Virus record (IMG/VR): IMGVR_UViG_3300046330_000547
Location: 1-22,469 of that record
DNA from: a virus
Direction: 5' to 3' (one strand)
DNA length: 22,469 nt
The translations under genes were made by a program, and so were the position numbers. Positions 152 through 17,459 of the stretch are shown here, piece after piece. The notes under the pieces were generated by a model. That model worked only from the letters and a program-made list of their open reading frames with translations, did no database searches and had not been told where the DNA came from. The number at the start of each line of letters is the position of its first letter. The first letter of the stretch is position 1.

Positions 152-652
152 CTATTTTTTCGGTAAACGTTTAACAACAGACTTCATAACTTGTTTTAAT
201 TGATTTGCATAATCAGGAGCTGTTGCATAACCTGCTTTTGCTATTTCTTCAAAAAATCTTTCAGGGTTTGATTTATAATTCAAAGCATTCGAATACCTTC
301 TATTTTTCAAATAGAAATTAACATGATCCTCAAATGCTAATTGTGCAGAAGGATATTTTCTAAACCAATCTTTGACCGTGTACTTAAATTTTCTTCCTAC
401 TTTAACAATTTTAATAACAACAGGGAATTTTACTTTATCTGATGCTAAAAATTCAGTCGTTGTTATTAATTGCTCATTGCCATTAACACCATCGGTATCT
501 TTAATTCCAAAGAAATTATTTCCAACTGCTTTTTGTCCCCAACCGCTTTCAAGCGCTCCTTGTGTAAGCGGAATTAAATAATGAAATCCTGTTTTTGCTT
601 CTACTTTTTTAGCTTCCGGCAAATATATTTTTACAAATTTTTCTGGCGTCAT
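152..652 (-). CDS. Endolysin, glucosaminidase (GH73-like)
   Basis: A 166-residue protein predicted to hydrolyse the N-acetylglucosaminyl bonds of peptidoglycan and lyse the host. It is compact, spanning about one GH73/FlgJ-type domain. The motif A-L-E-S-G-W-G-Q at 33-40 gives Glu35 as the likely catalytic acid, followed by N-N-F-F-G-I-K at 45-51. Further family features are the F-R-K-Y-P-S segment at 97-102, an R-Y-x-x-A-L segment at 119-124 and G-Y-A-T-A-P-x-Y-A at 141-149. There is no signal peptide or membrane segment, so release to the periplasm must depend on a holin, which fits the run of small membrane proteins just upstream. Its ATG lies 2 bases after the stop of the 59-residue gene. 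Family assignment is good; substrate linkage is inferred from the family. Confidence 0.9.
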   Translation of the reverse strand: MTPEKFVKIYLPEAKKVEAKTGFHYLIPLTQGALESGWGQKAVGNNFFGIKDTDGVNGNEQLITTTEFLASDKVKFPVVIKIVKVGRKFKYTVKDWFRKYPSAQLAFEDHVNFYLKNRRYSNALNYKSNPERFFEEIAKAGYATAPDYANQLKQVMKSVVKRLPKK

Positions 653-1986: not shown

Positions 1987-4299
1987 TTAAATATTAGTTT
2001 TATGTGATTTAAATTGTGAAGCTTTCTGTAATCCTTGATTAACAATATTCAATGAAGCTTCTTTCGCTGTTAAATCTATTTTAGCACTCAAAGAAGCTAA
2101 CTGTGCAGTCGTTCCTAAATCGACTAAATTGTCGCCAAGAACTATTACTTTGTTTATATCAAACGGAATACCACCAGCTACACATCGCAAATACAATGTG
2201 CCGCTCATTAAACTTCCGTTGATAGTTGACCCAAATTTGAATGCAGTTGAACCTGTAAACGTACCCGAAGCATTTAAGTTTAAATCTCGGTCATTTGCTG
2301 TTGGGTGGAACGAAACGGTATCAGCGCCAATAACAGAAATAGTACTATCGATGAAATTAATTTCGGCATCGGTATAATTGACAATTGTCGAGTTGACTCT
2401 GTTAATCGTAACTATTCCTGTTCCAATATTTACGACTGTATTAATTCCGGTATTGGTTATAGTATTAGATAGATTCGTATTGGTATTGTAAGTTAAAGTT
2501 CCTGAAATACTTACTCCTGACAAATCCGTTGGAATATCTTGAATTACATTTCCAATAATTGCAATGTTAGAAAAAGCCCCATTTGCAGTTGCGTTAGCTT
2601 GTATTTTTTTAAACTTGGGTCCAGCGGTTAAAAATTCCAAACCAACTATACCCATAGCAGTTACTAAAGTATCACCGTTTGCCGTTACTGGTTGTGTTCC
2701 TATTGTTGGATACTCCAATTGAGATTGAACATTTCTTGTTTTCCAAGCCTTCATAACATCATATAAATCATCCAAAGTGCTATTTGCAGTAACGGTTATT
2801 GTGTTTGTTACGGTATTTACGGAAAAAGACGAGGCTAATTTTGCTACAGCTGCAGCTTCTGAAAGAGTTACGTTTGCATCTAATTTATGGTCTAATGAAG
2901 TGGTTTTTGTGAGATTACCTTTAAGCTCAAAATTTGGCTGATAAACAATTTCATATAAGTAATTGAAACTATAAATGTCTATTAAGTCTGTATTATTGTT
3001 GTTTTTAGAAAAATATACATCAGATGAAGGAGTTGTTGCTCCTTGATAGATTGTTTCTCTTAATAAAAACTTATCAGTAGTAGTTGAGCCATTTGTAGAA
3101 GAAAGTGTTTTTTGAGTTCCAGATTTACCAATAACATAAACAACGCTTGATATATTACTACTAGACACTCCTTTTGTCTGAACGATATAGTTTTTTGTTG
3201 CTCTTACAGTATTTGACCTTCCAGAAGTTGTAGCTGCGATTAAAAAATCACTACCTTTTTCATAATTTAAAAACTCAACAATTCTGTCTGATCCAGTTCC
3301 TCCAACTGAAAATAAAGGTCTTCCTCTTGTATCTCCAATATTTGAAAAAACATAAGTTCCAGGATTCATTAAACTACTAGCAAGAAATGCAGCAAAAACA
3401 TATTTAAACTCAATTCCTGTCAATACTGTTGGCAAAGATAATTGCGCAAAACCAGCGCCACTTCTAGGAGCAGCATTTTTTCTTCCTCCAAGCAATATCA
3501 TACCAAAAATATTTGTAGTGCCTTGTGAATACCACTGCTGCGCTCCGTCTACTGTTCTAGAAACACGCATGTAGTCAAGTACTGGCTTTCTAGTCATACC
3601 TGTAAAACCAATATTTAAAGTAGAGCCCGCATTTGTTACTATACCTCCCCAAACATTTATAACTCCTGACATCCAATTAAAAGTACCTCCCGAATTAACC
3701 CTTAAAAAAGCAGTTGCTGTAGTAAATCCGTTACTTTCGTCAAATCCTTTATTAGCCCCAGGCTCAAAAATTAATATTTGAGAAGTAACACTATCAATAA
3801 CACCGTCAGAAGTATATTGATGTCCTAATGTTAAAACACCACCATTTAAAACATCAATGTCAGGAGCAGTTGAAGGACCAGCATCTTGACCAATAATTAT
3901 TTGTTCAAATGGAGCGACTTCTGCTCCAATAGATAAATTGCCAGTTACTATTAATCTTAAAACTCCAAAATCATACGTTGTAAATCCTCCAACTCTTGCA
4001 GTTGTTATAATGGCTGGAATTGAACTTAATGCAGCTAAAGAGGCATCTGTAAATGACTGCGTAACAGTTGTATTGTAAGTTCCAGCTACCGAAGTAGCAG
4101 ATACCGTAAAAGCTTGCGTAACGGTTATCGATGTAGCGCTAACAATAGTTGCTACGAATCGAGTTTGTCCTGAAATAACAATTGGGCTACCAACAAGCAG
4201 TTGAGTATTATAAGCAGAACCTACACCAGTGACAGATGTTGAGCCATTTGTAATTGTATGTGTGCCTGTCAGCGTAAGAGAGTTAATAGAAAATGCCAT
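1987..4299 (-). CDS. Large beta-rich tail fibre or spike protein
   Basis: A 770-residue protein very rich in Thr, Ser, Asn, Gly, Ile and Val, as in extended or beta-helical receptor-binding fibres. The N-terminal segment at about 15-64 (V-T-G-V-G-S-A-Y..., G-S-P-I-V-I-S-G-Q-T, ...A-T-S-I-T-V) resembles a small beta domain common near the N-terminus of phage tail fibres. Residues about 130-250 read like stacked beta-helix coils (repeated N-G-G, N-S-G-G, N-A-G-S turns). The second half has further short-period repeats of Ile/Val/Thr/Asn. The last about 37 residues are helix-forming (A-Q-L-A-S-L-S-A-K onward), possibly a trimerising tip or stalk. There is no signal peptide and no S74 chaperone. 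It starts 1 base after the 99-residue gene. It is the most likely terminal receptor binder, but no enzymatic (depolymerase) motif is visible. Confidence 0.75.
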   Translation of the reverse strand: MAFSINSLTLTGTHTITNGSTSVTGVGSAYNTQLLVGSPIVISGQTRFVATIVSATSITVTQAFTVSATSVAGTYNTTVTQSFTDASLAALSSIPAIITTARVGGFTTYDFGVLRLIVTGNLSIGAEVAPFEQIIIGQDAGPSTAPDIDVLNGGVLTLGHQYTSDGVIDSVTSQILIFEPGANKGFDESNGFTTATAFLRVNSGGTFNWMSGVINVWGGIVTNAGSTLNIGFTGMTRKPVLDYMRVSRTVDGAQQWYSQGTTNIFGMILLGGRKNAAPRSGAGFAQLSLPTVLTGIEFKYVFAAFLASSLMNPGTYVFSNIGDTRGRPLFSVGGTGSDRIVEFLNYEKGSDFLIAATTSGRSNTVRATKNYIVQTKGVSSSNISSVVYVIGKSGTQKTLSSTNGSTTTDKFLLRETIYQGATTPSSDVYFSKNNNNTDLIDIYSFNYLYEIVYQPNFELKGNLTKTTSLDHKLDANVTLSEAAAVAKLASSFSVNTVTNTITVTANSTLDDLYDVMKAWKTRNVQSQLEYPTIGTQPVTANGDTLVTAMGIVGLEFLTAGPKFKKIQANATANGAFSNIAIIGNVIQDIPTDLSGVSISGTLTYNTNTNLSNTITNTGINTVVNIGTGIVTINRVNSTIVNYTDAEINFIDSTISVIGADTVSFHPTANDRDLNLNASGTFTGSTAFKFGSTINGSLMSGTLYLRCVAGGIPFDINKVIVLGDNLVDLGTTAQLASLSAKIDLTAKEASLNIVNQGLQKASQFKSHKTNI

Positions 4300-4300
4300 T

Positions 4301-4600
4301 TTAAATCGTTATTTTTTTAGTTGCTACTAATCCAGAAAATACACCATTTGAGTAGTTTAAATAAAAACTATCTTCGCTATCGTCATTAGCAATGAATCTG
4401 TATCTAATCGCTCCACCTTGGTAGGTATATTTTAAAACTTCGCCTGTTGGTATTGGAGCCAAATCTTCAACACTTAAATAACCCGAAACAAGCGTAAACC
4501 AGTTTTCTTTTTCAGCTTTTTTATCAATAGAAACAGCCATCGCTTTCATTAAAGTAGCGATGTGAGTAGAAAGAGCGGTTATGCGTTCAGATAGTTTCAT
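4301..4600 (-). CDS. Small fibre- or baseplate-associated protein
   Basis: A 99-residue protein with an N-terminal amphipathic helix (about 1-30, MKLSERITALSTHIATLMKA) that could trimerise, followed by a small beta domain at about 35-99 with many aromatic residues (Y-T-Y-Q-G-G-A-I-R-Y-R-F). It lies between two clear fibre proteins with 1-base gaps on both sides (168-residue gene stop, 770-residue gene start). The helix-then-beta layout is typical of short trimeric fibres or fibre tips. I do not recognise a family. A role as a fibre subunit or fibre chaperone is inferred from position and shape. Confidence 0.6.
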   Translation of the reverse strand: MKLSERITALSTHIATLMKAMAVSIDKKAEKENWFTLVSGYLSVEDLAPIPTGEVLKYTYQGGAIRYRFIANDDSEDSFYLNYSNGVFSGLVATKKITI

Positions 4601-4601
4601 T

Positions 4602-5108
4602 TTAGTTTAAATAAGCAGTGTTGAAATCAGCTACAAAGTCTCTATCTGTGTTGCCAATATTTGTAGTTAATGTTGCTAAATCGTTAGCCGAAGCTGCTCC
4701 GATATTAGTTCTAGCCTGTGCTTTTTGAGTGTCGCTAAACGCTTGAGCCAAAGCTGTTGAAACTAAGCCATTGTCAGTTTGAGCCAAAGCCACAATCTTA
4801 TCGGCTAGCTCCTTAAGCGTATCACTATCGCTTCCAGCACCATTTATCAAATTAGCTACTGCCGTTGTAATCAACGAAGTGATTTTGGTAGAACTATATG
4901 TTTTGTTTAAGGCTGGAGTGGCATCATCAATTACCGAGCTTGGCGCTGGCAATGCATTGATATTGGATTTCAACTCATTTAAAGCCGCAACAATACTTGT
5001 TTTATCAGTAGTCGATAAATTAGCTATATTACCAATTTTTGCATTTACTGCTTTGATTGTATTAGCCGCTTGAACCGCTAAGTCTACTATTCTTTGTTCC
5101 TGTGTCAT
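4602..5108 (-). CDS. Tail fibre stalk-like protein
   Basis: A 168-residue Ala/Thr/Asn-rich protein with features familiar from phage tail fibres: N-L-S-T-T-D-K-T-S-I-V-A-A-L-N-E-L-K at 30-47, a D-D-A-T-P-A-L-N-K-T-Y-S-S-T-K-I segment at about 61-76, and S-D-T-Q-K-A-Q-A-R-T-N-I-G-A-A at about 125-139, the last two being recurrent fibre motifs. It is probably a trimeric helical and beta stalk. The final 16 residues (153-168) match the final 16 residues of the 94-residue protein two genes of sequence upstream (R-D-F-x-x-D-F core). Gaps to neighbours are 1 and 5 bases. There is no obvious receptor-binding head, so it may be a linker subunit. Confidence 0.7.
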   Translation of the reverse strand: MTQEQRIVDLAVQAANTIKAVNAKIGNIANLSTTDKTSIVAALNELKSNINALPAPSSVIDDATPALNKTYSSTKITSLITTAVANLINGAGSDSDTLKELADKIVALAQTDNGLVSTALAQAFSDTQKAQARTNIGAASANDLATLTTNIGNTDRDFVADFNTAYLN

Positions 5109-5113
5109 AATTT

Positions 5114-5398
5114 CTATGTATTAAGTGCTATTAAAAAATCTTGTGCAAAATCACGCTCGTAGTTTCCTAGAACGGATAAATCTTGTAAACTAGCAATCCA
5201 TTCTGGCTCTGAACCTACAAATCCATTCTGTAAAGCAATTTCATAAGCCGAATAGCCTCTAAATCCACGTTTACCAAGCGGAGCAACTGTTATAGTAGTT
5301 TGTTTACGAGCGCTACTCACAACTACCTTGTATTGCCTTGGCTTAGTTGTAGCTACTACAGTATATTTTCGAATATTTTGAATGGCTGTTATTTTCAT
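5114..5398 (-). CDS. Small fibre linker with collagen-like stub
   Basis: A 94-residue protein. After a basic beta-rich N-terminus (1-40), residues 42-71 contain a very short collagen-like run (G-K-R-G-F-R-G) joined to S-A-Y-E-I-A-L-Q-N-G-F-V-G-S-E-P-E-W-I-A-S-L. That S-A-Y-E-x-A-x-x-N-G-F-x-G-(S/T)-E-x-E-W-x-x-S-L block is a recurrent linker in phage fibres and collagen-like phage proteins, where it normally joins longer domains. Here the protein ends 23 residues later with the motif Y-E-R-D-F-A-Q-D-F at 80-88, which is shared with the C-terminus of the 168-residue protein. The small size and lack of a head suggest a modular subunit assembled with its neighbours. Confidence 0.65.
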   Translation of the reverse strand: MKITAIQNIRKYTVVATTKPRQYKVVVSSARKQTTITVAPLGKRGFRGYSAYEIALQNGFVGSEPEWIASLQDLSVLGNYERDFAQDFLIALNT

Positions 5399-5402
5399 TT
5401 TC

Positions 5403-5771
5403 CTAATTTGTTATATTCCACCAAGCCTCTAAAATTGGATATACATCTTGATCAGATTGCTCTTCAGATAACTCAAAATAGTAGTCTCTAGCTGGGACAT
5501 CAATTTTTCTCTTTTTTAAAACTATTTCTCCCGTTGTAGGATCTGAAATAGCACCTGTGCCAAAAACGATCGAGCCGTCACTTGTTTTGAATTCTAAAAC
5601 AGTAGAACCTGTTTTACCTTGTTTTAGTCGAGCTACAAGTGAGCAACCTGTATAATCAACTGGTTGCTCTACATTGTTATCGTCAGGTTCAGTAACTAAA
5701 AAAGATATACCGTCCCAAGTTTTACCTCGCTTGTGATCGGGAATTCTAAAGTCTTCAATTTCGCAATTCAT
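5403..5771 (-). CDS. BppU-like N-terminal-domain baseplate or fibre-attachment protein
   Basis: A 122-residue, beta-rich soluble protein. The start D-F-R-I-P-D-H-K-R-G-K-T-W-D-G-I (7-22), the P-V-D-Y-T-G-C-S-L-V-A-R-L-K stretch (37-50) and the F-K-T-S-D-G-S-I segment (61-68) resemble the immunoglobulin-like N-terminal domains of phage baseplate upper proteins, which attach fibres to the tail tip. In many phages this domain is the first part of a longer fibre; here it is a free-standing protein. It starts 11 bases after the 351-residue gene and ends 4 bases before the 94-residue gene. Family placement is by recognised pattern only and should be confirmed by profile search. Confidence 0.6.
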   Translation of the reverse strand: MNCEIEDFRIPDHKRGKTWDGISFLVTEPDDNNVEQPVDYTGCSLVARLKQGKTGSTVLEFKTSDGSIVFGTGAISDPTTGEIVLKKRKIDVPARDYYFELSEEQSDQDVYPILEAWWNITN

Positions 5772-5782: not shown

Positions 5783-6838
5783 TTAATAAAGTCCGCAAGG
5801 GGATATTGTAGTTCCATAATAAGGCTCAAAAACTCCTTCATATAAATATCGTACCTCCCAATCAAACCAATTATACACATCTTGAGATGGTCCTACGTAA
5901 GAATATACATATCCGGCGTACAATTCATAGCCGTTATTATACCAATACAATTTTCCATCACTACCATCATATAATTGTTGTGAAAAACAAGGGTTTGTCT
6001 TATAATAATAATTTGGCTCGTAGGTAATATCTGCAAAAGTTGTCCCCGATGTAGTATTACTATCATTAGAGAAAGAGCCACTACTGCCATTTATTCCTGC
6101 CGCTCTAACCATAAAATTATATGTAGTCGATGCGGCAAGTCCCGTAACGGTATAATTATTTACATTTCCTGGTATAGTTGCATGTAAATTTCCATTAAGG
6201 TAAACGTATTGATTAGTAGCTGTTCCTCCAGAAGGGAATGGCCCAGTACTCGGAGTCCACCACAGGTAAACACTACTTGAATTACTTACTGAGTTATTAA
6301 GATTAGTCGGCGGATTAATTGCAGTTGTAAAGCCAACCTGCATTCCACTAGTAGACGTGTTGCCAGCAGCATCTATAGCCCTGACTGCCAAAGAATATCC
6401 TGTAAGAGCTGACAATCCAGTTAATGCGTAAGAATTTATTAAACCAACATTAGCCAGTAACGATCCATTCATAAATATTTTATAACCTGTTACTCCGACA
6501 TTGTCACTTGCTCCGCTCCAAGTTATTGTGGCAGTATTTGTTCTTATACTGTTCCAATCTACATTAGCATCTGCGCCAAGTGGCAGTGTAATATCACCAC
6601 CAGTAGCCCAAACACTTCTAGGCACTAATTGATTAGAAGCATAAGCACTCATAGAACCTGCATTAAGATTGTATTTGGCTAATGCTTGTGCCTTAGTAAG
6701 ACATTCATTAGAGTTTACACTAGATTGCCCTGCATTCAAAGCAAAACCCAATGATTGCGCTTGTGTAAAGGTTACCATTTGATTGGATGCTTGACCAAAA
6801 GCCAAAGAGCAAAATAAAATTAATAAGTACTTTTTCAT
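5783..6838 (-). CDS. Secreted-type fibronectin type III tail or surface protein
   Basis: A 351-residue protein. It begins with a Sec signal peptide (MKKYLLILFCSLAFG, cleavage likely near residue 15-17). Residues about 22-78 contain T-Q-A-Q-S-L-G-F-x-L-N and S-N-E-C-L-T-K-A-Q-A then Y-A-S-N-Q-L-V-P, a pattern I associate with Flavobacteriia phage or surface proteins. Two fibronectin type III domains follow, about 101-173 (...Y-x-L-T-G-L-S-A-L-T-G-Y) and about 175-268 (Y-T-V-T-G-L-A-A-S-T-T-Y-N-F). The C-terminus, 271-351, is Tyr/Trp-rich with two Cys (284, 348). No type IX secretion C-terminal domain is seen. It starts 1 base after the S74 fibre gene. In a phage operon it could be an adhesin, but the signal peptide is odd for a virion protein. 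Confidence 0.7.
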   Translation of the reverse strand: MKKYLLILFCSLAFGQASNQMVTFTQAQSLGFALNAGQSSVNSNECLTKAQALAKYNLNAGSMSAYASNQLVPRSVWATGGDITLPLGADANVDWNSIRTNTATITWSGASDNVGVTGYKIFMNGSLLANVGLINSYALTGLSALTGYSLAVRAIDAAGNTSTSGMQVGFTTAINPPTNLNNSVSNSSSVYLWWTPSTGPFPSGGTATNQYVYLNGNLHATIPGNVNNYTVTGLAASTTYNFMVRAAGINGSSGSFSNDSNTTSGTTFADITYEPNYYYKTNPCFSQQLYDGSDGKLYWYNNGYELYAGYVYSYVGPSQDVYNWFDWEVRYLYEGVFEPYYGTTISPCGLY

Positions 6839-6839
6839 C

Positions 6840-9143
6840 TTACTTCAATTTTTCTTTAAGTGATTTAACTTCTAACTCCAAAGCGTTTACTTTAGCTACT
6901 AACACTTCTATATAATTAACACTCATATACCCTTGCTCATCTCTATTAACTTGCTCTGGCATCTTTTTTCTAACCTCTTGTGCCACATAACCAAAGTGAG
7001 TTTTATTGTCTCTTTTGTCCTTCCAAGTAAATTCAATCATATCGCCTGATCTAGAAATAATATTCTTTAATCGTCTGTCAGATGAAGCGTAAAAAGCTGT
7101 AGCGGTAATTGTGCCTGAAACCGTACCGCCTGATAACGGCAAATAACTACCAGTGATAAATCCAGCTCCGTTAGTCAATTGATTTGTGTTAGTTGGAATA
7201 GTAATTACACCCGTGGATGAATTATAGGCTCCACTTCCAGCGGTAAAACTAAGAGCTGTTCTGGCTCCTGATGTATTAATATACCCGCTGTCGTTTGTAA
7301 AACTCGAAACATTTGTAGGCCTTCCAGAAACGTTCGTCCAAGCTACCGAACCAGCAGATCCAGTAATACTTCCTGTTGATGTAATGTATCCATTGGGATT
7401 AGTACTATTATAAGGTGTGAATCCTAAAGCTCCTGTAACTTGCGCTGAACTAATTCCTGTTAAAAATCCACTAGGATTTCCACTTAAAGGATAAGCATCA
7501 GTTATACCAAAACCAGCCAATGTAGTTGGTTTACTTGAGAGACCTGCCCAACTCAAACCAGTAATATATCCACTTGGGTTGGTGGAGTTATAAGGAGTAA
7601 AACCAAGTGCGTTTTGCTTTCCGTTAAAAGTATTCCAATCTGTTGAAGACAAAGCCCCGTTTGATGTGCTACTTGCCAGACCGAGTGATAATACCTGAGT
7701 ACTTAATGACAACCCATTAGCGGTACCTATAGTAACAGCGTTATGCCTTGCGGCTGTATTTGCCGACACATTAGCATTTGCATTTACGCGCGCATCAGTG
7801 TAATATAAATTTCCTATCTCTGTTACTTGACTAGTATTATAATCTCCAGCGTTAGCAACTACAGATCCAGTTCTTCCAAAAACAGAAGTTGCACCTCCAG
7901 TAGGGCTTAATAACTCCTGCCAGTTGCCCAATACACTTGCGGTTGCACCTTGAAGAATATAGCTTTTATTCAAGTCTGTTCTAATTGCTACATCGCCAGT
8001 TTCGGCAGTCAAAGCTAGCATTGCAGCTTGTGTATTTATTACATAAGTATCAGTTATAGCTATAGCAGGTAGCTGATTAGATATTAATTTTCCGTCTGCG
8101 CCTAGTCCCGCATATCCATTTGCAACATTTTTACTTGACGTATTTTCTTTTAAATTCAAAGCCGTTTGTGTAGCAGTTGAAACAGGCTTTGCGGCATCGG
8201 TAGTATTATCAACATTGCCTAAACCAACCGAAGTTTTATCTAACGTTTGCCAAGTTTTATCTCCTCTATAATATTGCGAAGTAGTACCGGAAGTAATTAA
8301 TGTCTGACCATCGGTAATTCCATATCCACTTAAAGTTGTGGGCTTTCCTGACACTGCTGTAAAAGAAATTCCTGAAATATAGCCATTTGGATTAGTGGAA
8401 TTATAAGGGGTATATCCTAAAGCAGAAGTAACGTTAGCACTTGTTATGCCTGTTAAATAAGAGTTAGTATCTAAATCCCAAGTATTAGCCGCAGTTTTTT
8501 TCAAAAAACCACTTGTTCCAGTCAGGCCTGCAATAGCTGTTAAATCGGAATTTAATGGTTGCCCGCCCAATCCACTCAAAGTATAAGCAGGTAGTGTTTG
8601 CCATGATTTATCGCCTCTCCAATACTGAGATGTCGTGCCTGCGGTGATAGTATTTTCTTTTGTTGATACTGCCGAATTAACGTATGTTTCTGTAGCTAAT
8701 CCTGAAATACTTGGAATGATAGGCTTGTTTAAAATTTGAGCGTCACCACTTGAAGCATTCCAATCAGCATTGACATTTACTTCTGCTCCAGACGCAATTC
8801 CCGAAAGTTTTGTTTTATCAGCAGTAGTGTAATCATTTGAAGACAAACCTTTACCAGCTTCCTTATCTACTTTATTAACTAATCCAGGAATAGTTGGCGA
8901 CGTTGCGGTACCTCCTAAATCTCCTGATAGTTGGATTTTTCCCAGAGTAGTTGTGGTAGCGTTTGGAGTTTCCAAAGAGTTTTTAGTCACATAACCAACC
9001 TCTTTAGTTGTAGCGTCTTGAACCATTACTCTAGTTGCGGTTGTATTTTCAGGATTTGATGTAATCTTGAGTTTTGTTACTCCTGTTGTTTGGGCTTGTA
9101 ATGTAATTGCCGTGAATAGCAATAATAAAAAGTACTTTTTCAT
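6840..9143 (-). CDS. Tail fibre with C-terminal S74 chaperone domain and N-terminal signal peptide
   Basis: A 767-residue fibre. Residues 1-18 look like a Sec signal peptide (K-K-Y-F-L-L-L-L-F-T-A-I-T-L-Q-A-Q). The body is beta-rich with repeats: A-L-G-(Y/F)-T-P-Y-N-S-T-N-P at 241, 512 and 572, and T-S-Q-Y-(W/Y)-R-G-D-K-x-W-Q-T-L at 171 and 288. It also holds V-F-G-R-T-G-S-V-V-A at 421-430 and Y-Y-T-D-A-R-V at 447-453, known fibre motifs. The C-terminus, about 683-767, is a peptidase S74 intramolecular chaperone: S-S-D-R-R-L-K-N (687-694, S688 the likely self-cleavage serine), H-F-G-Y-V-A-Q-E-V (716-724), Y-M-S-V-N-Y and a final coiled coil (745-767). Such domains trimerise fibres and then cut themselves off. 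It follows the 135-residue gene after 16 bases. Fibre identity is firm; location (virion or cell surface) is open because of the signal peptide. Confidence 0.88.
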   Translation of the reverse strand: MKKYFLLLLFTAITLQAQTTGVTKLKITSNPENTTATRVMVQDATTKEVGYVTKNSLETPNATTTTLGKIQLSGDLGGTATSPTIPGLVNKVDKEAGKGLSSNDYTTADKTKLSGIASGAEVNVNADWNASSGDAQILNKPIIPSISGLATETYVNSAVSTKENTITAGTTSQYWRGDKSWQTLPAYTLSGLGGQPLNSDLTAIAGLTGTSGFLKKTAANTWDLDTNSYLTGITSANVTSALGYTPYNSTNPNGYISGISFTAVSGKPTTLSGYGITDGQTLITSGTTSQYYRGDKTWQTLDKTSVGLGNVDNTTDAAKPVSTATQTALNLKENTSSKNVANGYAGLGADGKLISNQLPAIAITDTYVINTQAAMLALTAETGDVAIRTDLNKSYILQGATASVLGNWQELLSPTGGATSVFGRTGSVVANAGDYNTSQVTEIGNLYYTDARVNANANVSANTAARHNAVTIGTANGLSLSTQVLSLGLASSTSNGALSSTDWNTFNGKQNALGFTPYNSTNPSGYITGLSWAGLSSKPTTLAGFGITDAYPLSGNPSGFLTGISSAQVTGALGFTPYNSTNPNGYITSTGSITGSAGSVAWTNVSGRPTNVSSFTNDSGYINTSGARTALSFTAGSGAYNSSTGVITIPTNTNQLTNGAGFITGSYLPLSGGTVSGTITATAFYASSDRRLKNIISRSGDMIEFTWKDKRDNKTHFGYVAQEVRKKMPEQVNRDEQGYMSVNYIEVLVAKVNALELEVKSLKEKLK
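7380..7430 (-). repeat. Fibre repeat copy 3 (ALG-x-TPYNSTNP unit)
   Basis: Third copy in the S74 fibre gene, residues 572-588, A-L-G-F-T-P-Y-N-S-T-N-P-N-G-Y-I-T. The downstream part diverges from copies 1 and 2. Repeats of this type form stacked beta units along trimeric fibres and are substrates for recombination that changes fibre length. Confidence 0.9.
7560..7610 (-). repeat. Fibre repeat copy 2 (ALG-x-TPYNSTNP unit)
   Basis: Second copy in the S74 fibre gene, residues 512-528, A-L-G-F-T-P-Y-N-S-T-N-P-S-G-Y-I-T. The following residues S-S-K-P-T-T-L-A-G-F-G-I-T-D also match those after copy 1 (S-G-K-P-T-T-L-S-G-Y-G-I-T-D), so the duplicated unit is about 40 residues long here. Confidence 0.9.
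8370..8423 (-). repeat. Fibre repeat copy 1 (ALG-x-TPYNSTNP unit)
   Basis: The first of three copies of an 17-18-codon unit within the S74 fibre gene, encoding A-L-G-Y-T-P-Y-N-S-T-N-P-N-G-Y-I-S-G (residues 241-258). The other copies are at 7560-7610 and 7380-7430. They differ at the Tyr/Phe, Asn/Ser and Ser/Thr positions and vary in third-codon bases. Confidence 0.9.
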
Positions 9144-9159
9144 ATTTGTATAATTAATT

Positions 9160-9567
9160 TTAAGTTCCTATTTCTGTAAATTGTAAAACTGTATAGTTGG
9201 TCCTGTCACTTCGATTTCCTCCATTCCAAATTGCCTTATCCCAATAAACTCCAGTATTTGTATCTGAATCCCAAGTTCCCCAACCTGATACAAAATCTCC
9301 TGGTTGATCCGTTCCTGTAGTATTGCCTCCTCCACGAGCGATAATTCGAAGCTCCATGAAATCAATAGGTCTTGAATCTGCTTTTGAAACTATATCTTGT
9401 ATGGTTAAATGTTGAGAAACTCCAGCATTTGAAACATGAACTTTTGATAATGGATTATAAATATCTTGATGTGGTAAGTCTTCAATATTCTTTGCATTAG
9501 TAACAATTGAATTAATTGCACTAGTTAGAGCAGTTAAACGACCAATGACAAAATTTTGAAAACTCAT
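9160..9567 (-). CDS. Small fibre-associated protein, first gene of fibre operon
   Basis: A 135-residue protein starting at the ATG at 9567 (MSFQNFVIGRLTALTSAINS). A TTG 33 bases upstream is also in frame, but it overlaps the predicted promoter, so the ATG is preferred. The first about 25 residues form an amphipathic helix like that of the 99-residue protein; then come a segment with H-L-T-I-Q-D-I-V-S-K-A-D (54-65), an R-I-I-A-R-G-G-G stretch and a C-terminal half rich in Gly, Asn, Asp and Trp (G-W-G-T-W-D-S-D-T-N-T-G). The protein is soluble and beta-rich and has no signal peptide. As the first gene after the AT-rich spacer it is likely to be co-transcribed with the S74 fibre gene. It could be a small fibre tip or fibre-attachment protein; not recognised at family level. 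Confidence 0.6.
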   Translation of the reverse strand: MSFQNFVIGRLTALTSAINSIVTNAKNIEDLPHQDIYNPLSKVHVSNAGVSQHLTIQDIVSKADSRPIDFMELRIIARGGGNTTGTDQPGDFVSGWGTWDSDTNTGVYWDKAIWNGGNRSDRTNYTVLQFTEIGT

Positions 9568-9588
9568 GATACTGAATGTTTTATTTGA

Positions 9589-9596
9589 CAAATGTA
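9589..9596 (-). promoter_or_regulatory. Bacteroidota-type promoter -7 element for the fibre/lysis operon
   Basis: On the minus strand this octamer reads TACATTTG, an exact match to the TAnnTTTG -7 element of Bacteroidota vegetative promoters. It lies 21 bases before the ATG at 9567, giving a predicted untranslated leader of about 15-20 bases. No good TTTG at the -33 position is present; the upstream stretch is almost pure A/T. It would start transcription of the genes from the 135-residue protein leftward. The position after the terminator at 9888-9919 supports a real operon start. Confidence 0.45.
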
Positions 9597-9663
9597 ACAA
9601 AATATGTTCTATTTATAATTATTCTAAATAATAAAATTTAAATTTATTTAAAATCAATTTTTG

Positions 9664-9671
9664 TAATTTTG
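9664..9671 (+). promoter_or_regulatory. Bacteroidota-type promoter -7 element for the divergent small gene
   Basis: The plus strand reads TAATTTTG, an exact TAnnTTTG match. A degenerate -33 candidate TTTA lies 17 bases upstream at 9643-9646. The element ends only 4 bases before the ATG at 9676, so a start site at the usual distance would fall on or next to that ATG, giving a leaderless or nearly leaderless transcript. This is a prediction from motif spacing only. Confidence 0.4.
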
Positions 9672-9675
9672 AAAG

Positions 9676-9888
9676 ATGTTTATATTTCTACTTATACTTT
9701 TCATAGTTCTTGTTGGAGGAGGTTATTCTATTGGAAAATCTATTGGAAATACTTTGTTTCCAGACGAAAAAACAACCTATATAGATAGATCAGTTCACCA
9801 TCACTATCATGAACATAAAAGCATTAATATTATTGATGAAGAAACGAGGAAGAAAGTTTTTGAATTGAGAGAAAAAAAAGTAAAATAA
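9676..9888 (+). CDS. Divergent His-rich single-span membrane protein, possible moron
   Basis: A 70-residue protein and the only convincing plus-strand gene. Residues 1-27 form a membrane segment with a small-residue face (F-I-V-L-V-G-G-G-Y-S-I-G-K-S-I-G-N), followed by L-F-P-D-E-K-T, a His-rich stretch H-H-H-Y-H-E-H at 41-47 and a charged helix I-I-D-E-E-T-R-K-K-V-F-E-L-R-E-K-K-V-K. It has its own promoter motif and ends right at a bidirectional terminator, so it forms a separate transcription unit inserted between the tail-tip and fibre genes. That is the layout of a moron gene, one expressed independently of the late genes. The His cluster could bind metal. No function can be given; a host-surface or superinfection role is a guess. 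Confidence 0.65.
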   Translation: MFIFLLILFIVLVGGGYSIGKSIGNTLFPDEKTTYIDRSVHHHYHEHKSINIIDEETRKKVFELREKKVK

Positions 9889-9919
9889 AAAAGCCGCTAA
9901 ACTTAATTAGCGGCTTTTT
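9888..9919. terminator. Bidirectional intrinsic terminator
   Basis: A perfect hairpin: GCCGCTAA at 9893-9900 pairs with TTAGCGGC at 9907-9914 around a six-base loop (9901-9906), and the stem is extended by five A at 9888-9892 facing five T at 9915-9919. Both strands therefore show a GC-rich stem followed by a T run. It starts at the last base of the His-rich gene's stop codon and lies 19 bases past the stop of the 663-residue tail gene, so it should end transcription arriving from both sides. Confidence 0.92.
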
Positions 9920-9937
9920 ACTTAAATAAGGTTAGTT

Positions 9938-11929
9938 TTAATAACTAATAAATCCAGTATTAGTAGTTATTAAGTTTGGTGCCTCAATAGCATCATCAAC
10001 TAATTCAATTGAACCTCCAGAAGTTTTAGAATTATAAACATTACCCGTTTTAATCATAGTAGCGGTTAATACGTAAAGATTTGAATCATTCAATGGTCCT
10101 TCAGTATTGAAATTACCACTTTTAACATATCCAACGCCATCAATTGTCACTTTCTCATGAGATAGTGCCTGAGCTAGCTTGCGCCACATTTCTTTAGTTA
10201 ATGGCTCAAAAATAAAATCGTCAACCTCAAATAAATCGGCATTCAATAATTTTGCATTGGTATCTGTTTTATAAGTTTCAGATTCTTCTTCTGTTTTCCC
10301 TTTGATATTTGTATAAAAAACCCTGATTAAATGCTCTATTCCTGTAGAATAAAAAATATCCGTATTAGTGGAATTACTGTATCGTATTTCGAGCGTATTT
10401 TTATGCCTATCTAAACAATAAATCTTTTCACTTAAATGTGTTTTAGTTCCAAAATTAGGGTCTGAATTAATAATTTTCACCCTAAAATATTCATTTTCAT
10501 AAAGCGACATATCAACCTGAAATTCATAAACTTCATATTCAAAACGATTATAAATTGCACCTACTATTATAGGAGTATCGGCACCGGTGTAATTATCTGA
10601 AAACACAATAACATCTGCGCCCTTATTTTCATCAAAAACAATTTGGTCTATTTTATACCAAATATTATTTATACTGAAATAAGTTCCTATTTGAGCCCAT
10701 TCTGGCAATAGTCCGTTCAAAGAATATGGTTCGGTAACGGCATCCGTATTATAGTCGTATTTATTTCCAGAAGAAAAATAAATACCGCTTTGACCTCCGC
10801 CTAAACTGTACTTAATCGAGTCTCGTTTATCTTTAATACCGATGTTATTTGATTTTCTCTCAACTATCAAATTGACCTCTGAATTATCTGACTTTATTAG
10901 TTTAGCAGAAATGTTTTTATAATTGGATTTAAATTGTGTTGTGATTAAATCAGATGTTTGGAAAGGTTGTATTTCCATGTATGGAAGTTTAGCATCAACC
11001 TCGCAACTTAATGTATTCTCATCATTTTTATAATTAGTACTATTACCAAATGTTACTCTTTCAGCAAATCGAATTGAATTGGATTTTGAGATATAAAAAA
11101 AAGGATCTGTAATACCTAATTCATCTACCAAATATTCTTTTTCAAATGAACAACCATATTGGTCCTTTACATAAATTGTGTGGGTTCCTGCTGTAATTCC
11201 TGCAAAAACATTTGAAGATTGCCAATTCGTGCCATCTTTTGAGTATTGCAAAACCAATCCGTTTATCAAAGTGCTGTTTACAATTACAGAAGCGCCATTA
11301 GGACTATTATTTACTTGAATTGTAAAATTGGCAGCATTAAGCGCATTTGGAAAAGTTAATGATTTTGTTACTTTTCCTCCACTACTGTTTTCTACTTCTA
11401 AAGTGATTATCTGCCCACGAACCCATTCGAAAGTAAAAGGATTTTCAGTATTTCCATTTAATTGAAAAGGCGACGTTATCTTACTAGCCAATTCACTTGT
11501 GGTAACTGTAGCCTTTACTTTTTGGCATTTATTTGTTGTGGCTTCTGAAAAAACTACGTTTGTAACGCTTATAGGGTTTTCAACCTCAGCAAAATTAGAG
11601 CTAAAAACAAAATTGAAAAGTTCTTCTTCTGGGTGTATTGAATCTAATATCATCCATCCAGCTTCTTCAGAATAAATATAACCATCAGATGATTCTCCAA
11701 TAAAAACAGGAAAATCAGCATTGATTTGATTTAAAGTTTGAACCGCTTGTTGTCCTAAACTTCCAGCATGTATTGACAATGTTTGAAGCGGTCTATTTGG
11801 ATAATAATTACTATCGTAAGTAAATGTATAGACTGCACCTAAAGACCCACCCACATTTGAAGAATATCTTTCAAATTGGATAAAATCCCCATTAACCGGT
11901 TTACTATTAAATTTTATTTTAGTTGCCAT
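9938..11929 (-). CDS. Large tail-tip protein with Ig/SprB-like insert
   Basis: A 663-residue, beta-rich protein that ends the upstream virion operon, just before the bidirectional terminator. The N-terminus (MATKIKFNSKPVNGDFIQF) resembles tail-tip or baseplate proteins that start with a short beta domain. At about 202-262 an Ig-like module is visible: L-Q-Y-S-K-D-G-T-N-W-Q-S-S-N (227-240), F-A-G-I-T-A-G-T-H-T-I-Y-V-K-D-Q-Y-G-C (242-260), the same pattern as repeats in gliding adhesins such as SprB. Several more Tyr/Asn-rich beta domains follow; near the C-terminus L-T-K-E-M-W-R-K-L-A-Q-A-L marks a helix. It begins 11 bases after the 741-residue protein. A role in the tail tip or host adhesion is inferred from position; no enzymatic motif is seen. 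Confidence 0.65.
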   Translation of the reverse strand: MATKIKFNSKPVNGDFIQFERYSSNVGGSLGAVYTFTYDSNYYPNRPLQTLSIHAGSLGQQAVQTLNQINADFPVFIGESSDGYIYSEEAGWMILDSIHPEEELFNFVFSSNFAEVENPISVTNVVFSEATTNKCQKVKATVTTSELASKITSPFQLNGNTENPFTFEWVRGQIITLEVENSSGGKVTKSLTFPNALNAANFTIQVNNSPNGASVIVNSTLINGLVLQYSKDGTNWQSSNVFAGITAGTHTIYVKDQYGCSFEKEYLVDELGITDPFFYISKSNSIRFAERVTFGNSTNYKNDENTLSCEVDAKLPYMEIQPFQTSDLITTQFKSNYKNISAKLIKSDNSEVNLIVERKSNNIGIKDKRDSIKYSLGGGQSGIYFSSGNKYDYNTDAVTEPYSLNGLLPEWAQIGTYFSINNIWYKIDQIVFDENKGADVIVFSDNYTGADTPIIVGAIYNRFEYEVYEFQVDMSLYENEYFRVKIINSDPNFGTKTHLSEKIYCLDRHKNTLEIRYSNSTNTDIFYSTGIEHLIRVFYTNIKGKTEEESETYKTDTNAKLLNADLFEVDDFIFEPLTKEMWRKLAQALSHEKVTIDGVGYVKSGNFNTEGPLNDSNLYVLTATMIKTGNVYNSKTSGGSIELVDDAIEAPNLITTNTGFISY

Positions 11930-11940: not shown

Positions 11941-14166
11941 TTATCTGTTAGACTTTAATACTTTCCATTGCCCCTTGCCGTTTGGCTTTACGCTAAACAA
12001 AAAACCTTTTTCGGTTTCGTTTCGCTCGTTTGTAAATTCGATTAATCCGTAAAAATTAGGTATTTTTTTTCCTAAAATAGTGGATGATCCATCCAACTGT
12101 TGAGTAATGTCAAAATCAACAATATGCTCAAATTCTATCCATTCTGGGAAGAATCTTGCTTTTGATAATTCTGAATTGATAATAGTTCCATTTTCCGCAT
12201 ATTCGTTTTTTCCAATCAATTGTGTTTTCAATTGGCTATTGGCTACCGAACTACCATAGCGAACATAATCAGTTATGTATTTTTGAAAACCTCCAGAGAA
12301 CCACCAAGAATGACGAAGCAAACAATTAAACGGAGAAAAACGCAAGTTTGTCGCTGATGAAGGATCAAACACTCCTGTAGGTTCTTTAATAAAATCATCC
12401 TGCCACTTACGTTGGTCATAGGTATTTGAAGTTTCCTTTTTTAAGTCTAAAATAAAGACATCACTATCGTATTTTGTATCGGCTGTATCATCTAAAAACT
12501 TTGGCTTTCTTCTTGCAAACTCCAACCCATAAGAATCAAAACGGTACTTAGAAATCATAGAATATGTTTCTTTAATTCGATTGATTACAGTGGTGTATGT
12601 TGACTTGGTATTGTATTCATCTAGTCCGTTTGCTTCTTCGTAATCTCCTCCTTTTTCGGGTCCGAATTCTAAAGAGGAATAGTAATATTGAGCAGCTACT
12701 GATCTCTTAACATTTTTTACTTGATTTGGAAGTCGAATAGTTACATTGTTATTAAAGAAAAATGATTTTTCTTCTAAACGTAATACTTCTTTGTAACCAA
12801 CTCTTTCAATTCCAACACCCACATTCCAAAGCGCATTTAAGGATTGAACTGCGTCTCGAAAAGAAGTGGTTAAAGGCTTGAAAAGGTTTTCTACTTTTGG
12901 GTTTTCTGTTGGAATTGGAAACTTATCAAATTGACGTACCCAAAACCCATGTGTTAGACCCATAAAAGCTCCTACTCCATCATTGGTGTATCCTAAATCT
13001 TTGCGGCCTAGAAATTCAGAATAAAATGCTTTTTGCTTATTAGTATTTATTGCTACTAGTCTTTCCATGAACTCATGCGCCAAAATTGCTTTTGTTGTTG
13101 ATAATTCTTGAGAAGAATTTTCTTCTAGTGTTAAATTTGCCTTAATGTCGCTTAGATTGATTCTCAAATGAGAACTTCTTCCGTTCTTACCATCGTGGTT
13201 TTGATCAACAATCAAACCTAAGCTTTCTCCCGCCAAAACTGTAATATTTTGGTCTATAGAAATTGTGATATTTCTATTATTTAAAGAACTAAAACTATCT
13301 GTTGTAAATAAAATATTATTTGATTTAAAAGTATAATCTGAGGATCCGTTATAAGTTGCGAGTCTAAGCCAAAATCTAAAAAAATTAATGTCATCATATT
13401 CCAATATTTTAGCTCTAAATGAAATATCAAGCTTTAACCTAAAAGTTCTATCTCTATCGTTTACTGCGAAAAAAAGTAATCCTAATTCTCCAGGACCGCT
13501 TCTATCCCATGAATCTTCATCTACTCTACTTGAAACAATAGGGCTTTGTGCTACTTCATGTGATTTAGTTTCTAATACTAATGGAATTGGCGCAGATTGA
13601 CCCCTTGTTTGTCCGTTAGTTTGTCTGTATAATTCAACTGTATTTTCTAGGTCTGAAATTCCAAATTTTGTTTTCAGAAAAACTTTTCTACCTTCTAAAT
13701 TAACGGTAATTGGATTTAGAGCTGGAATTGTTTTTCCATCTATAGAAGTTTCTCTATCAATTTCAACTTGCTCTGATTCTCTAGATTTTAAAGCCTGTTC
13801 TAATCCACCGGAATTGAATTTTATAGCTATTTTATCGTCTTCAGTTTCCCAAGTTGATAGATCTAGATAACCTGAATAACTCAAAGTCCAAACATCTGTT
13901 TGAGGATGTCTTTCTTCTCTTTTTAATTGAATTTCAGCATTGATTCCCTCAATGTCATACACTAATTGTATGAACTCTTTTCCGCTACCTACAAACTTTG
14001 AAGAATTCGAAAATCTGGAAACAATACCAAAATATTGTTCGTTTCTAGCTAGTTCTTTTTCATCGCTATTCCATCCCTCTGGCTCGTCAATTATTAATGA
14101 CCCTTGTGATTTGCTATAAAGAGTATAACGAACTCTATCCGTGTATGCTGGATTTATGTTTCCCAT
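11941..14166 (-). CDS. Tail-tip / baseplate hub protein following the tape measure
   Basis: A 741-residue protein that starts 2 bases after the tape measure stop. Its N-terminus (V-R-Y-T-L-Y-S-K-S-Q-G, then D-E-P-E-G-W-N-S-D-E-K-E-L-A-R at about 28-42) and continuing beta domains are of a type I associate with proteins directly downstream of the tape measure in Flavobacteriia siphophages. The gene order is that of Dit/Tal or lambda M/L/J tail-tip proteins, so it probably belongs to the hub at the distal end of the tail. Residues about 390-440 and 590-650 are rich in aromatic residues (S-W-W-F-S-G-G-F-Q-K-Y). No protease, lysozyme or glycosidase motif was seen. Function is inferred from order. 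Confidence 0.65.
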   Translation of the reverse strand: MGNINPAYTDRVRYTLYSKSQGSLIIDEPEGWNSDEKELARNEQYFGIVSRFSNSSKFVGSGKEFIQLVYDIEGINAEIQLKREERHPQTDVWTLSYSGYLDLSTWETEDDKIAIKFNSGGLEQALKSRESEQVEIDRETSIDGKTIPALNPITVNLEGRKVFLKTKFGISDLENTVELYRQTNGQTRGQSAPIPLVLETKSHEVAQSPIVSSRVDEDSWDRSGPGELGLLFFAVNDRDRTFRLKLDISFRAKILEYDDINFFRFWLRLATYNGSSDYTFKSNNILFTTDSFSSLNNRNITISIDQNITVLAGESLGLIVDQNHDGKNGRSSHLRINLSDIKANLTLEENSSQELSTTKAILAHEFMERLVAINTNKQKAFYSEFLGRKDLGYTNDGVGAFMGLTHGFWVRQFDKFPIPTENPKVENLFKPLTTSFRDAVQSLNALWNVGVGIERVGYKEVLRLEEKSFFFNNNVTIRLPNQVKNVKRSVAAQYYYSSLEFGPEKGGDYEEANGLDEYNTKSTYTTVINRIKETYSMISKYRFDSYGLEFARRKPKFLDDTADTKYDSDVFILDLKKETSNTYDQRKWQDDFIKEPTGVFDPSSATNLRFSPFNCLLRHSWWFSGGFQKYITDYVRYGSSVANSQLKTQLIGKNEYAENGTIINSELSKARFFPEWIEFEHIVDFDITQQLDGSSTILGKKIPNFYGLIEFTNERNETEKGFLFSVKPNGKGQWKVLKSNR

Positions 14167-14168: not shown

Positions 14169-17100
14169 TTAATTCCAGTTTAAATTATTGTTTCTCCATA
14201 AATGATAATTAATATCAATTTTAGGGTTTTTGACAATTATATTTCCTTTGTTTTTTTCAATAGCCTTTCTGGTTAATTGCATTTCTAATACCAATTTGTC
14301 ATTATTGTTTTGGAACAATATATCTTTTTGGAAGCCCTTAACCATTTCATTATCCCTGGTAAACTTATTCAAAATAGAAGCTCTCATATAGCGGTTATAA
14401 TCATCTACAGATTTATGCACAATATCACCTTGTTCAAGAAAGGTAAGAGTTGGTTTGTTTGGGGTAATTCTTGGACTAGAACCATCGGCTTTGGTAATAA
14501 CCTCACTCACGTATCCGTCACCAACTTCTGCAAATTCAGCTTTCCCACCTTTACGACCATGTTTATATTTTGGTATTGGAGTTGCTAAAATTGCTCCTAT
14601 TTGAATAGCTCCCATAGCTCCAGCTACAGTTGCCATTATAGGACCCAATGGTAAAAATGGTTGAGTATTTAATGCGCTAAGAATTGCTAATGCGGTACTA
14701 ATTCCTGCTTGAGCCACAGCTGAAGCTTTATTAAAAATAGCCTGTTTGTGCTGTTCTTTCCTTTTTTTCTTTTCTAATTCATCGTTATTTTTATCGCGCT
14801 CTTTTTCAATTAAATCTTTTTGCCTTTGGTCGTTACCAGCTAACTCCAACTGCCTATCGTAATACTCATTGTTTTTAGAAATTTCATCATCAATTTGTTG
14901 GATTTTTTTATCAAAAAATGCATTTCCTAAATCAGTCAATGCTCCAGTCATATCAGAAGAAATTTGAAGTATCAAAGTAGCCTGTTCTTTGGCTGACAAA
15001 ACTTTCTCTTTTTCTCCTTTATCAAAATTGCTAACCTCGGTTTGTTTTAATTTTAATTTTGCATCTGATATTTTTTTCTCTGTTTCAAGAATAATCGCAT
15101 TTGATTCTTTTGAACCGTCTGATTGTAATTTGAATGCAGATAATTCAGCTTCTAAATTTGCTATTTGAAGTTTAGCAGTGGCAATTGCAAATTCTTTTTT
15201 GATGTCAAAAATTCTTTCTTCGTGAGCTCTAGTGGCACTTTCTTTTTCTCTTTCATTTTTAAAACCTAGCTCTTGAAGTAATCTAAACTTTTCTTCCTCT
15301 GCTGCCAATTCTTCGTTCATGGCGATTTCTAGCTTTGAAACCCCTTCTTTTAAGTTTTCTGCGTAAATACTAGGATCAAATTGATTTATTTTGTCAATTT
15401 CTTCAGCTGTTTTCTTTTCAATATCAACGATTTTATTTGCTGCTTCTTCTTTAATCCTTGTGCGTTCACTTGATGTTAATTTAGAGTTTTCAAGTACAAA
15501 TTTATCAGCGTCTAATGAGTGTTGTTTGCTTAAATTAGCAAGTTCAATTTGTTTTAATTCGCTTTGTTCTAAAGCCGCTATTCTAACATCGTCAGCCTCT
15601 TTATCGTCTTTGGCAACCTCATTGTTCAGCTGAATACTTCTTTCTAATCTTTGCTTTTCTAAATTGTAAAGGTCATCCGATGCCTTTTTTTCTCGATCTA
15701 ATTTTTCTTTTAATGCTTTTTTTTCAGCAGCTTCTCGTTTTTTTCTTTCGGCATCTGTTTCTGTAGCTGTAGTAACTGTGGATGGAGTTACCTTTAAATT
15801 AGATTTACTAATGCTTTTTAATATTTGAGCTGATTTACCAATTTGTACTAAAGCGTCTTCTTCTTGTTTTGTTTGTAAATGAAATAGCGCTCTATCCCCA
15901 CCCATAATAGATTCTCTTTTCTCTTTTTCTGCTTTTATAATCGCTTGATTTACACGAATGTTCTCTCTTTCTCTTGCAATCATTTCTTTTTTAACTGCTT
16001 CTTGATTTTCTTTTGAGGTATTTGAAATATTTTTCATCACATTCTGATATTGCTCAAGACCCTTTGATTTGCCAATATCTTGGAATTGTTTTTGAAGCTG
16101 TTTTTCGTCTTTAAATAACATACCAGTCAATGTGATGATATTAGTAAGGCCGCTGGTTATTTCTTTTACAAATAATGAAAATCCGCTTGAACTAGAATTA
16201 TTTATAGAACTGATCATTTCAGTCCAAGAATTAGATAATCTATTAACTGACTTAGTGATAGTTTCCATTCCTTGAGCCTTATCAGCACCGGTTAAAATCA
16301 CCAACTGACGTGCTGTCTCTGGAAGAACTTCGCTTGCTAAAATCTTACCGCTTTTAATCATTTCAAAAAGTCCTTTTTCGGTAAGGTTTTTGATTTCGGG
16401 ATGTAAGACCTGAACTGCTTTTGTCATGGCCTGAACTGCTCCTGGCAAGGCTTCTGCCAATTGCCCTCTTAGCTCCTCACTTGCAACAGTTCCTTTTGAT
16501 AACATTTGATTAACGGCAACAAATGAACGCTCCAATGTTTCATTTGATAACCCTAAAGCCGAACCTGATTTAGCAATGTTTTCAAACAAATCTTGTATTT
16601 CTTGAGCTGCTAATTTGTCTTTAGCTGCAACATAAAAGGCGGTGTATTGCTTTGTTAGATTCTTAATTTCAAGACCATATTTTTCAGCAATAGTATTTAA
16701 GAATGTTTGTTGGGCATTGAAGTTTTCTTGACTTCCAGTAACAGATTTTAATGCTAAATCAAGTGATTGTAATTCTTTAGTAGTGCTAAAAATATCTTTG
16801 GTAATTGCAGCAAAAGCTGTAACACCTCCAACAATTCCAAAGGCACCAAAAATGTCTTTTATACCAGAAAAAGCGCTTTTATAATTTCCTACATTTTTAG
16901 AAAAATCGCCAACTGCTCTGTCTGCTTTCCTTACTTTATTGTCAAGTATATCAAACTCTTTTTGAGCTTTTTTAATTTCAGCAGTAGAGGCTTTTTCCGA
17001 AGCAATTAAATCACGAAGCTTGTTTTTTGCTTCGGTTCTTGCGTTATTTAATTTAGTGTAAGCAGAAACTAAACCTAATCTTTCAAGAGTTTCCTGTTTT

Positions 17101-17459
17101 ATCTCTTTGTTTATTAGGGACAATTCTAAACGCTCTTTCACCAAGGCTCTATTAGTTCCTTCTGATGCCAATTCTACTTTCTTTTTAGTAGAAACTAAAG
17201 AGTTTTCTAATTGAATTTGCTCCTTCCAAATCCCAATCGCCTCATTGTTCGCTGCATTTATTTTTTTTTGATTTTCTGTAAAATCAGCCGCATTGAAAGA
17301 GCCACGCAATTTGTTATTAGCATCTGCAAGAGACACAATAGCTGTTACAAATTCTTTGTTCTTTCCAATTGCTGCATCAACTGTTTTTGCATATTCGACA
17401 CCCCAATTTAGGGCGTCATCTGATATTACATCTTTGCGCGTGATTGTTCCTTCGGCCAT
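14169..17459 (-). CDS. Tail tape measure protein
   Basis: A 1096-residue protein that sets tail length and occupies the tail lumen. The N-terminal 60-200 region is helical. Residues about 224-420 form a tape-measure domain of the TIGR02675 type: L-A-L-K-S-V-T-G-S-Q, A-E-K-Y-G-L-E-I-K-N-L-T-K-Q-Y, and G-T-V-A-S-E-E-L-R-G-Q-L-A-E-A-L-P-G-A (323-341). Residues about 580-915 are Lys/Glu/Ala-rich coiled coil. A hydrophobic segment at about 918-963 precedes a C-terminal H-G-R-K-G-G-K and E-V-G-D-G-Y-V-S-E-V-I motif, typical of tape measure C-termini. With about 0.15 nm per residue the tail would be about 160 nm long (inference). It starts 5 bases after the 194-residue protein. Confidence 0.93.
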   Translation of the reverse strand: MAEGTITRKDVISDDALNWGVEYAKTVDAAIGKNKEFVTAIVSLADANNKLRGSFNAADFTENQKKINAANNEAIGIWKEQIQLENSLVSTKKKVELASEGTNRALVKERLELSLINKEIKQETLERLGLVSAYTKLNNARTEAKNKLRDLIASEKASTAEIKKAQKEFDILDNKVRKADRAVGDFSKNVGNYKSAFSGIKDIFGAFGIVGGVTAFAAITKDIFSTTKELQSLDLALKSVTGSQENFNAQQTFLNTIAEKYGLEIKNLTKQYTAFYVAAKDKLAAQEIQDLFENIAKSGSALGLSNETLERSFVAVNQMLSKGTVASEELRGQLAEALPGAVQAMTKAVQVLHPEIKNLTEKGLFEMIKSGKILASEVLPETARQLVILTGADKAQGMETITKSVNRLSNSWTEMISSINNSSSSGFSLFVKEITSGLTNIITLTGMLFKDEKQLQKQFQDIGKSKGLEQYQNVMKNISNTSKENQEAVKKEMIARERENIRVNQAIIKAEKEKRESIMGGDRALFHLQTKQEEDALVQIGKSAQILKSISKSNLKVTPSTVTTATETDAERKKREAAEKKALKEKLDREKKASDDLYNLEKQRLERSIQLNNEVAKDDKEADDVRIAALEQSELKQIELANLSKQHSLDADKFVLENSKLTSSERTRIKEEAANKIVDIEKKTAEEIDKINQFDPSIYAENLKEGVSKLEIAMNEELAAEEEKFRLLQELGFKNEREKESATRAHEERIFDIKKEFAIATAKLQIANLEAELSAFKLQSDGSKESNAIILETEKKISDAKLKLKQTEVSNFDKGEKEKVLSAKEQATLILQISSDMTGALTDLGNAFFDKKIQQIDDEISKNNEYYDRQLELAGNDQRQKDLIEKERDKNNDELEKKKRKEQHKQAIFNKASAVAQAGISTALAILSALNTQPFLPLGPIMATVAGAMGAIQIGAILATPIPKYKHGRKGGKAEFAEVGDGYVSEVITKADGSSPRITPNKPTLTFLEQGDIVHKSVDDYNRYMRASILNKFTRDNEMVKGFQKDILFQNNNDKLVLEMQLTRKAIEKNKGNIIVKNPKIDINYHLWRNNNLNWN

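Follow-up and report, generated by a model that had tools for sequence, protein, structure and literature searches.

The stretch of DNA analysed here, in the following called the window, is the 22,469-base virus record IMGVR_UViG_3300046330_000547 with 24 genes, nearly all of them on the minus strand. Two neighbouring fibre genes in it carry signal peptides for the Sec pathway: an S74 tail fibre of 767 amino acids (6840..9143, minus strand) and a companion protein of 351 amino acids with fibronectin type III (FnIII) domains (5783..6838, minus strand), with 1 bp between the two open reading frames. We consider it probable that both are virion fibres which leave the cytoplasm through Sec, lose their signal peptides to signal peptidase I (SPI) and are joined at lysis to a tail built in the cytoplasm. 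This reading is carried by the signal peptides, by their joint presence or joint absence in the two genes, by the position in the tail operon and by counterparts in cultured phages that depositors' notes record as virion proteins.

Signal peptides were called by a rule for n-, h- and c-regions, run on the 24 genes of the window. In the fibre the predicted signal peptide spans residues 1-17 (17 codons, 9093..9143, minus strand), MKKYFLLLLFTAITLQA, after which Q and then TTGV follow; in the companion it spans residues 1-15 (15 codons, 6794..6838, minus strand), MKKYLLILFCSLAFG, followed by Q and then ASNQ. Both proteins pass the rule for Sec/SPI substrates and both have Gln at position +1 (A/Q and G/Q), which fits the Q-rule of the Bacteroidetes, where this residue marks about 71% of SPI substrates as a mean over species (PMC5837995). 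The complete pattern with Gln at +1 occurs in only these two of the 24 genes. The sole further match to the rule is a membrane protein of 104 amino acids in the lysis region (815-1129), which has no Q site. The first-pass annotation had proposed that both proteins carry Sec signal peptides and that the other virion-type proteins lack them, and both statements hold by the rule.

Shuffled N-termini passed the rule in 5% of draws and, with Gln at +1, in 0.8% and 2.6%; because they pass so rarely, two adjacent matches are not a chance result. Wrong start codons or accidentally hydrophobic N-termini, an explanation for which we found no supporting point, are refuted by this result together with the conservation of the signal peptide (the tag) in homologues, and we give this explanation practically no credence. 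The rule, the match to the Q-rule, the conservation in homologues and the joint absence from both genes elsewhere lead us to accept the signal peptides, which are thus confirmed at the level of sequence. Export of both proteins, which they imply, is supported by analogy.

To what extent the two tags belong together was seen in a survey of 335 loci, which took in each distinct S74 gene that was complete, together with the gene after it. Behind an S74 gene with a signal peptide the next gene was tagged in 14/14 cases, behind one without in 1/117, so that both genes or neither carry the tag in 130 of 131 pairs. Fisher's test gives p 6e-18 for all pairs, 1e-7 with C-termini clustered at 70% identity and 3e-4 at 50%; clustering at 45% leaves 8 clusters, too few for any statement. 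Gln at +1 is present in 13 of the 14 tagged S74 fibres. The two-gene cassette of the window recurs on other virus contigs (L082-L087), mostly from different genomes, there too with both signal peptides and with touching genes. The sole discordant pair (L120, 6345-6518) consists of an untagged S74 fibre and a companion with the tag MQAIRGLITAVFVIIAVSGYS before QVPDN, which is cut by the contig end and resembles, by eye, untagged companions beginning MAVPNTTTF.

The first domain of the companion was also found without tag, 33-53% identical to that of the window, at L179, L184, L189, L190, L192, L194, L198, L199, L200 and L205. These proteins begin like MAWSDL-ASNQMV where the window has MKYLLILFTVFTFGQASNQMV, with no hydrophobic replacement at the N-terminus, and the S74 fibres preceding them are likewise untagged; the tag therefore comes or goes on the pair together. 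Homologues without the hydrophobic N-terminus had been named in the first-pass annotation as evidence against export. They do exist, L179 among them, but presence and absence go together in both genes. Judged from these sequences, the joint pattern argues for a functional targeting switch, in which the pair would work in one compartment and the tag would decide which. It is very improbable, in our view, that the genes were captured from secreted host proteins and that the signal peptides are useless relics in the phage. Free recombination is indeed usual among phage fibre genes, and of the same fibre and companion domains there are tagged as well as untagged versions; however, many divergent sequences have the tag intact and in accord with the host rule, and it follows the both-or-neither pattern, whereas unused tags would decay independently. 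The suggestion that one signal sequence was duplicated between the two genes, based on their similar first residues, did not stand: the DNA of the two is 56% identical, a value reached by 19% of signal sequences from different loci.

The pair lies in a late tail operon. The minus-strand series runs from capsid protein E through tail genes, the tape measure protein (14169..17459), tail-tip virion protein 1 (11941..14166; phrog_15220) and tail-tip virion protein 2 (9938..11929; phrog_26672) to a short gene, the tagged pair, five genes at 1987-5771 and the lysis region, the last gene of which encodes a glucosaminidase endolysin (152..652, minus strand; PF01832, E 4e-27; endolysin in phrog). The two fibre genes thus follow the tail tip and precede the lysis genes, as distal fibres do. 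Cellulophaga phage phi19:1 has homologues of the tape measure (gp96, E 7e-15), tail-tip 1 (gp97, E 6e-84) and tail-tip 2 (gp98, E 1e-54) in the same order, shortly before two fibres with signal peptides. These positional counterparts of the window pair are labelled as virion proteins by tandem mass spectrometry (MS/MS). The MS/MS evidence used here consists of depositors' notes in the sequence records.

Altogether, 11 MS/MS-labelled virion proteins of Cellulophaga phages have Q-rule signal peptides: gp91-94 of phi10:1, gp101-102 of phi19:1, gp25-26 of phi39:1 and gp085-087 of phi18:3. They make up 11 of 59 labelled proteins in the scored stretches, the others being without a Q-rule signal peptide, and in every case they close the series of labelled genes in the tail module; in phi10:1, phi39:1 and phi18:3 they are the only distal fibre candidates seen. 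The rule misses gp25 of phi39:1, the A/Q site of which was accepted by eye, and a twelfth match, gp17 of phi39:1, has no Gln and was judged spurious. Cellulophaga phage phi40:1 provides a homologue of the S74 C-terminus of the window fibre itself: gp085 (E 1e-18), an MS/MS-labelled virion protein without signal peptide. Relatives of the window (L049, L078, L067, L085) have fibres with signal peptides in the corresponding place. In L067, six genes in series (7659-14301; 78-780 amino acids), directly after the tail-tip genes, all have Q-rule signal peptides. By analogy to the labelled proteins, the window pair is supported as virion fibres. Similar small Q-rule proteins (MKKVLLLSCFL..SSMEA/QRSRQ) were also noted outside the tail module in phi46:3 (L170, 558-848) and phi19:1 (L171, 323-604).

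A hydrophobic N-terminus that stays uncut, as a membrane tether or a hydrophobic plug holding the fibres or attaching them to the virion, would agree with the virion association of the relatives' proteins, and cleavage is a prediction and not a direct observation. However, Gln at +1 in 13/14 tagged S74 fibres and in all 11 accepted virion examples would make no sense for an anchor, and the untagged homologous companions have no hydrophobic substitute; we regard an anchor as rather improbable.

More weight, if still on the unlikely side, is due to secretion of the pair to the cell surface, where it would act as a decoy or adhesin or would mask the receptor (superinfection exclusion), with the proteins absent from the virion or there secondarily. 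The genes lie within the tail operon, with the tail-tip genes on one side and the lysis genes on the other, and counterparts in four cultured phages are virion-labelled, which speaks against such a role; yet a signal peptide alone means export, FnIII and fibre folds suit adhesion, and the phage has further fibres without signal peptide. Superinfection-exclusion factors of the Llp/Cor type are small lipoproteins having a lipobox with Cys at +1. The window pair differs from these in its sizes (351 and 767 amino acids) and has no lipobox at either cleavage site. A C-terminal sorting domain for type IX secretion was not among the Pfam matches of either protein, and the fibre ends in its S74 domain with a coiled-coil-like tail. 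Other phage proteins with such signals lend the surface role some support: PblB, a tail protein from a pneumococcal prophage, is predicted to have a signal peptide and mediates adhesion (PMC4508584), and Porphyromonas phages carry five Q-rule genes with no function assigned (PMC10367356). Of the roles brought forward in the first-pass annotation, export is retained with the signal peptides; surface display, adhesion or superinfection exclusion as the main role is disfavoured by the late tail operon, by the MS/MS labels of the tagged counterparts and by the S74 protein in the phi40:1 virion. Neither an adhesin nor an exclusion role is needed to explain the pair.

The domain content of the two proteins was examined with Pfam, which reports Peptidase_S74 in the fibre with 24.5 bits (curated cut-off 22) and two fn3 domains in the companion. 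The S74 domain contains the motif SDRRLK, which is conserved; Ser and Lys of the SDxRxK motif serve S74 self-cleavage. No relative of the fibre was found by sequence in the PDB. The companion's N-terminal domain is conserved (NQMVTFTQA...NQCMTK...NQLVPRSVW), and two scans of bacterial and archaeal genomes gave no relative of it. In an AlphaFold model of the companion (predicted local distance difference test, pLDDT, 56) the FnIII-like parts alone were recognisable. Homology of the companion's N-terminal domain to the phi40:1-type companion (MAVPNTTTF) was rejected in a comparison with hhalign, and to companions of the TWAG...NQ type there is weak homology only. Small companions of the form M[AS]VPNTTTF...GSKN.LLNFR.Y stand behind S74 fibre genes in many phages (L165, L166, L256-L335), one of them with a BACON domain. 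At L178, the companion near position 5270 has a lipoprotein-like signal peptide, MKKLLIIAIVIIACSF, so some companions may be membrane-anchored.

The short gene directly upstream of the fibre (9160..9567, minus strand, from its ATG; the listed TTG start is at 9600) has no signal peptide. We refer to it as the adaptor. A short gene of this kind stands directly before the fibre in 14/14 tagged S74 cases, and that of the window is homologous to the genes preceding signal-peptide fibres in L049, L078 and L085. In L086 and L087 the N-terminus of the short gene matches phrog_677, a 'tail fiber connector' of the T4 gp9 type (E 5e-7 and 5e-6), and also the N-terminus of phrog_6942, a tail-fibre family of 708 positions. 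An AlphaFold model of the window adaptor was uninformative (pLDDT 45). We infer that the adaptor is the socket left on the tail where the exported fibres dock. Between the genes for tail-tip 2 and the adaptor, the window has a small membrane-type open reading frame on the opposite strand (9676-9888, plus), rich in His (HHHYHEH); Leeuwenhoekiella phage Arctus_1 has a small antisense gene in the corresponding gap (L339, 13446-13670).

According to the mechanism proposed here, a flavobacterial siphophage would have in this pair its distal tail fibre together with the fibre's companion, which may be a tip protein. Both would be made late in infection with host-type signal peptides and would cross the inner membrane via Sec. 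There, SPI would cut before Gln, which the host would cyclise. Folding would take place outside the cytoplasm, presumably in the periplasm, with the S74 domain trimerising and trimming the fibre. Head, tail, tail tip and the short untagged adaptor would meanwhile be assembled in the cytoplasm, and it is to this adaptor that the exported fibre would become joined, once lysis has opened the inner membrane or at a later time.

Several observations weigh against this proposal. The five genes at 1987-5771, which come after the tagged pair, are mostly fibre-like and have no signal peptides; the window thus has a second fibre set, and one operon holds tagged and untagged fibres. The virion labels come from other phages, and the tagged S74 type itself is not among the labelled proteins. 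The MS/MS notes are silent on N-terminal cutting, and free secreted protein may have been co-purified. Homologues of tail-tip 1 occur in 31 phage records, mostly flavobacterial, and five cultured phages (Tenacibaculum phage JQ, Leeuwenhoekiella phage Arctus_1 and Polaribacter phages P12002L, Freya_1 and Danklef_1) pair such a tail tip with fibres without signal peptide, which means that export is not needed for such tails. For 86 S74 C-termini, the best tree has 9 changes of the tag label, but its forks are poorly resolved and the starred branches force only 1 change. Avoidance of Cys and O-glycosylation motifs were tried as a sign of the compartment, and a first hint was gone after one Cys-rich family was dropped and the test was made per gene. 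Finally, the idea that the window adaptor had been split off from the N-terminus of one-piece fibres was rejected, since its homology to fibre N-termini was not significant.

Beyond the window, there is in our estimate about an even chance that particle assembly is divided between two compartments in many tailed phages of Bacteroidota. Capsid, tail and socket would be made in the cytoplasm, distal fibres would pass through Sec and SPI, and the particle would be completed at or after lysis, with cassettes gaining or losing the tag on all genes as a unit. The accepted view places folding and assembly of tailed-phage fibres in the cytoplasm, and fibres that are exported and then attached are not foreseen by textbook phage assembly. 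If virion fibres of flavobacterial phages do go through Sec, their folding, their attachment and a possible cyclisation of the N-terminus are subject to different rules. Recombinant fibres for host typing would then have to be expressed for export, and receptor-binding proteins would be misfiled by annotation that equates 'signal peptide' with 'not virion'. With the Cellulophaga phages in culture, the question is open to direct test. Among the open papers searched, with most subscription journals outside the search, we found none that reports virion fibres with signal peptides in tailed phages of Bacteroidota; the novelty is provisional for this reason. The Cellulophaga phage records examined do not mention signal peptides, the 2018 Q-rule paper does not mention phages (PMC5837995), and signal peptides have been counted in the Bacteroides phages phiBrb01 and phiBrb02 (PMC5723332).

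Among known systems, the Q-rule SPI substrates of Bacteroidetes share with the window pair the signal peptide and Gln at +1, but are host envelope and secreted proteins (PMC5837995, PMC10653852). The Q-rule genes of Porphyromonas gingivalis phages are likewise phage-coded with host-type signal peptides, but are proposed modifiers of the host outer membrane and not described as fibres (PMC10367356). Streptococcus PblB also belongs to a phage tail and, in one species, is predicted to have a signal peptide; however, its host is Gram-positive, and PblB of S. mitis is freed by phage lysis and binds other cells (PMC4508584). Among the tail fibres with Peptidase_S74 (endosialidase chaperone), gp085 of phi40:1 has a homologous C-terminus and a small companion gene behind it with a 1-bp overlap, but neither protein has a signal peptide and the companion domain is not detectably homologous. 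The tagged proteins of phi10:1, phi19:1 and phi39:1 differ from the window fibre in having no S74 match in the S74 gene survey. Nevertheless, the distal fibres and pectate lyase-like proteins of these phages and of phi18:3 resemble the window pair in their Q-rule tags and in being the last genes of the tail module, there with MS/MS virion labels, and phi19:1 in addition has its tail chassis in common with the window.

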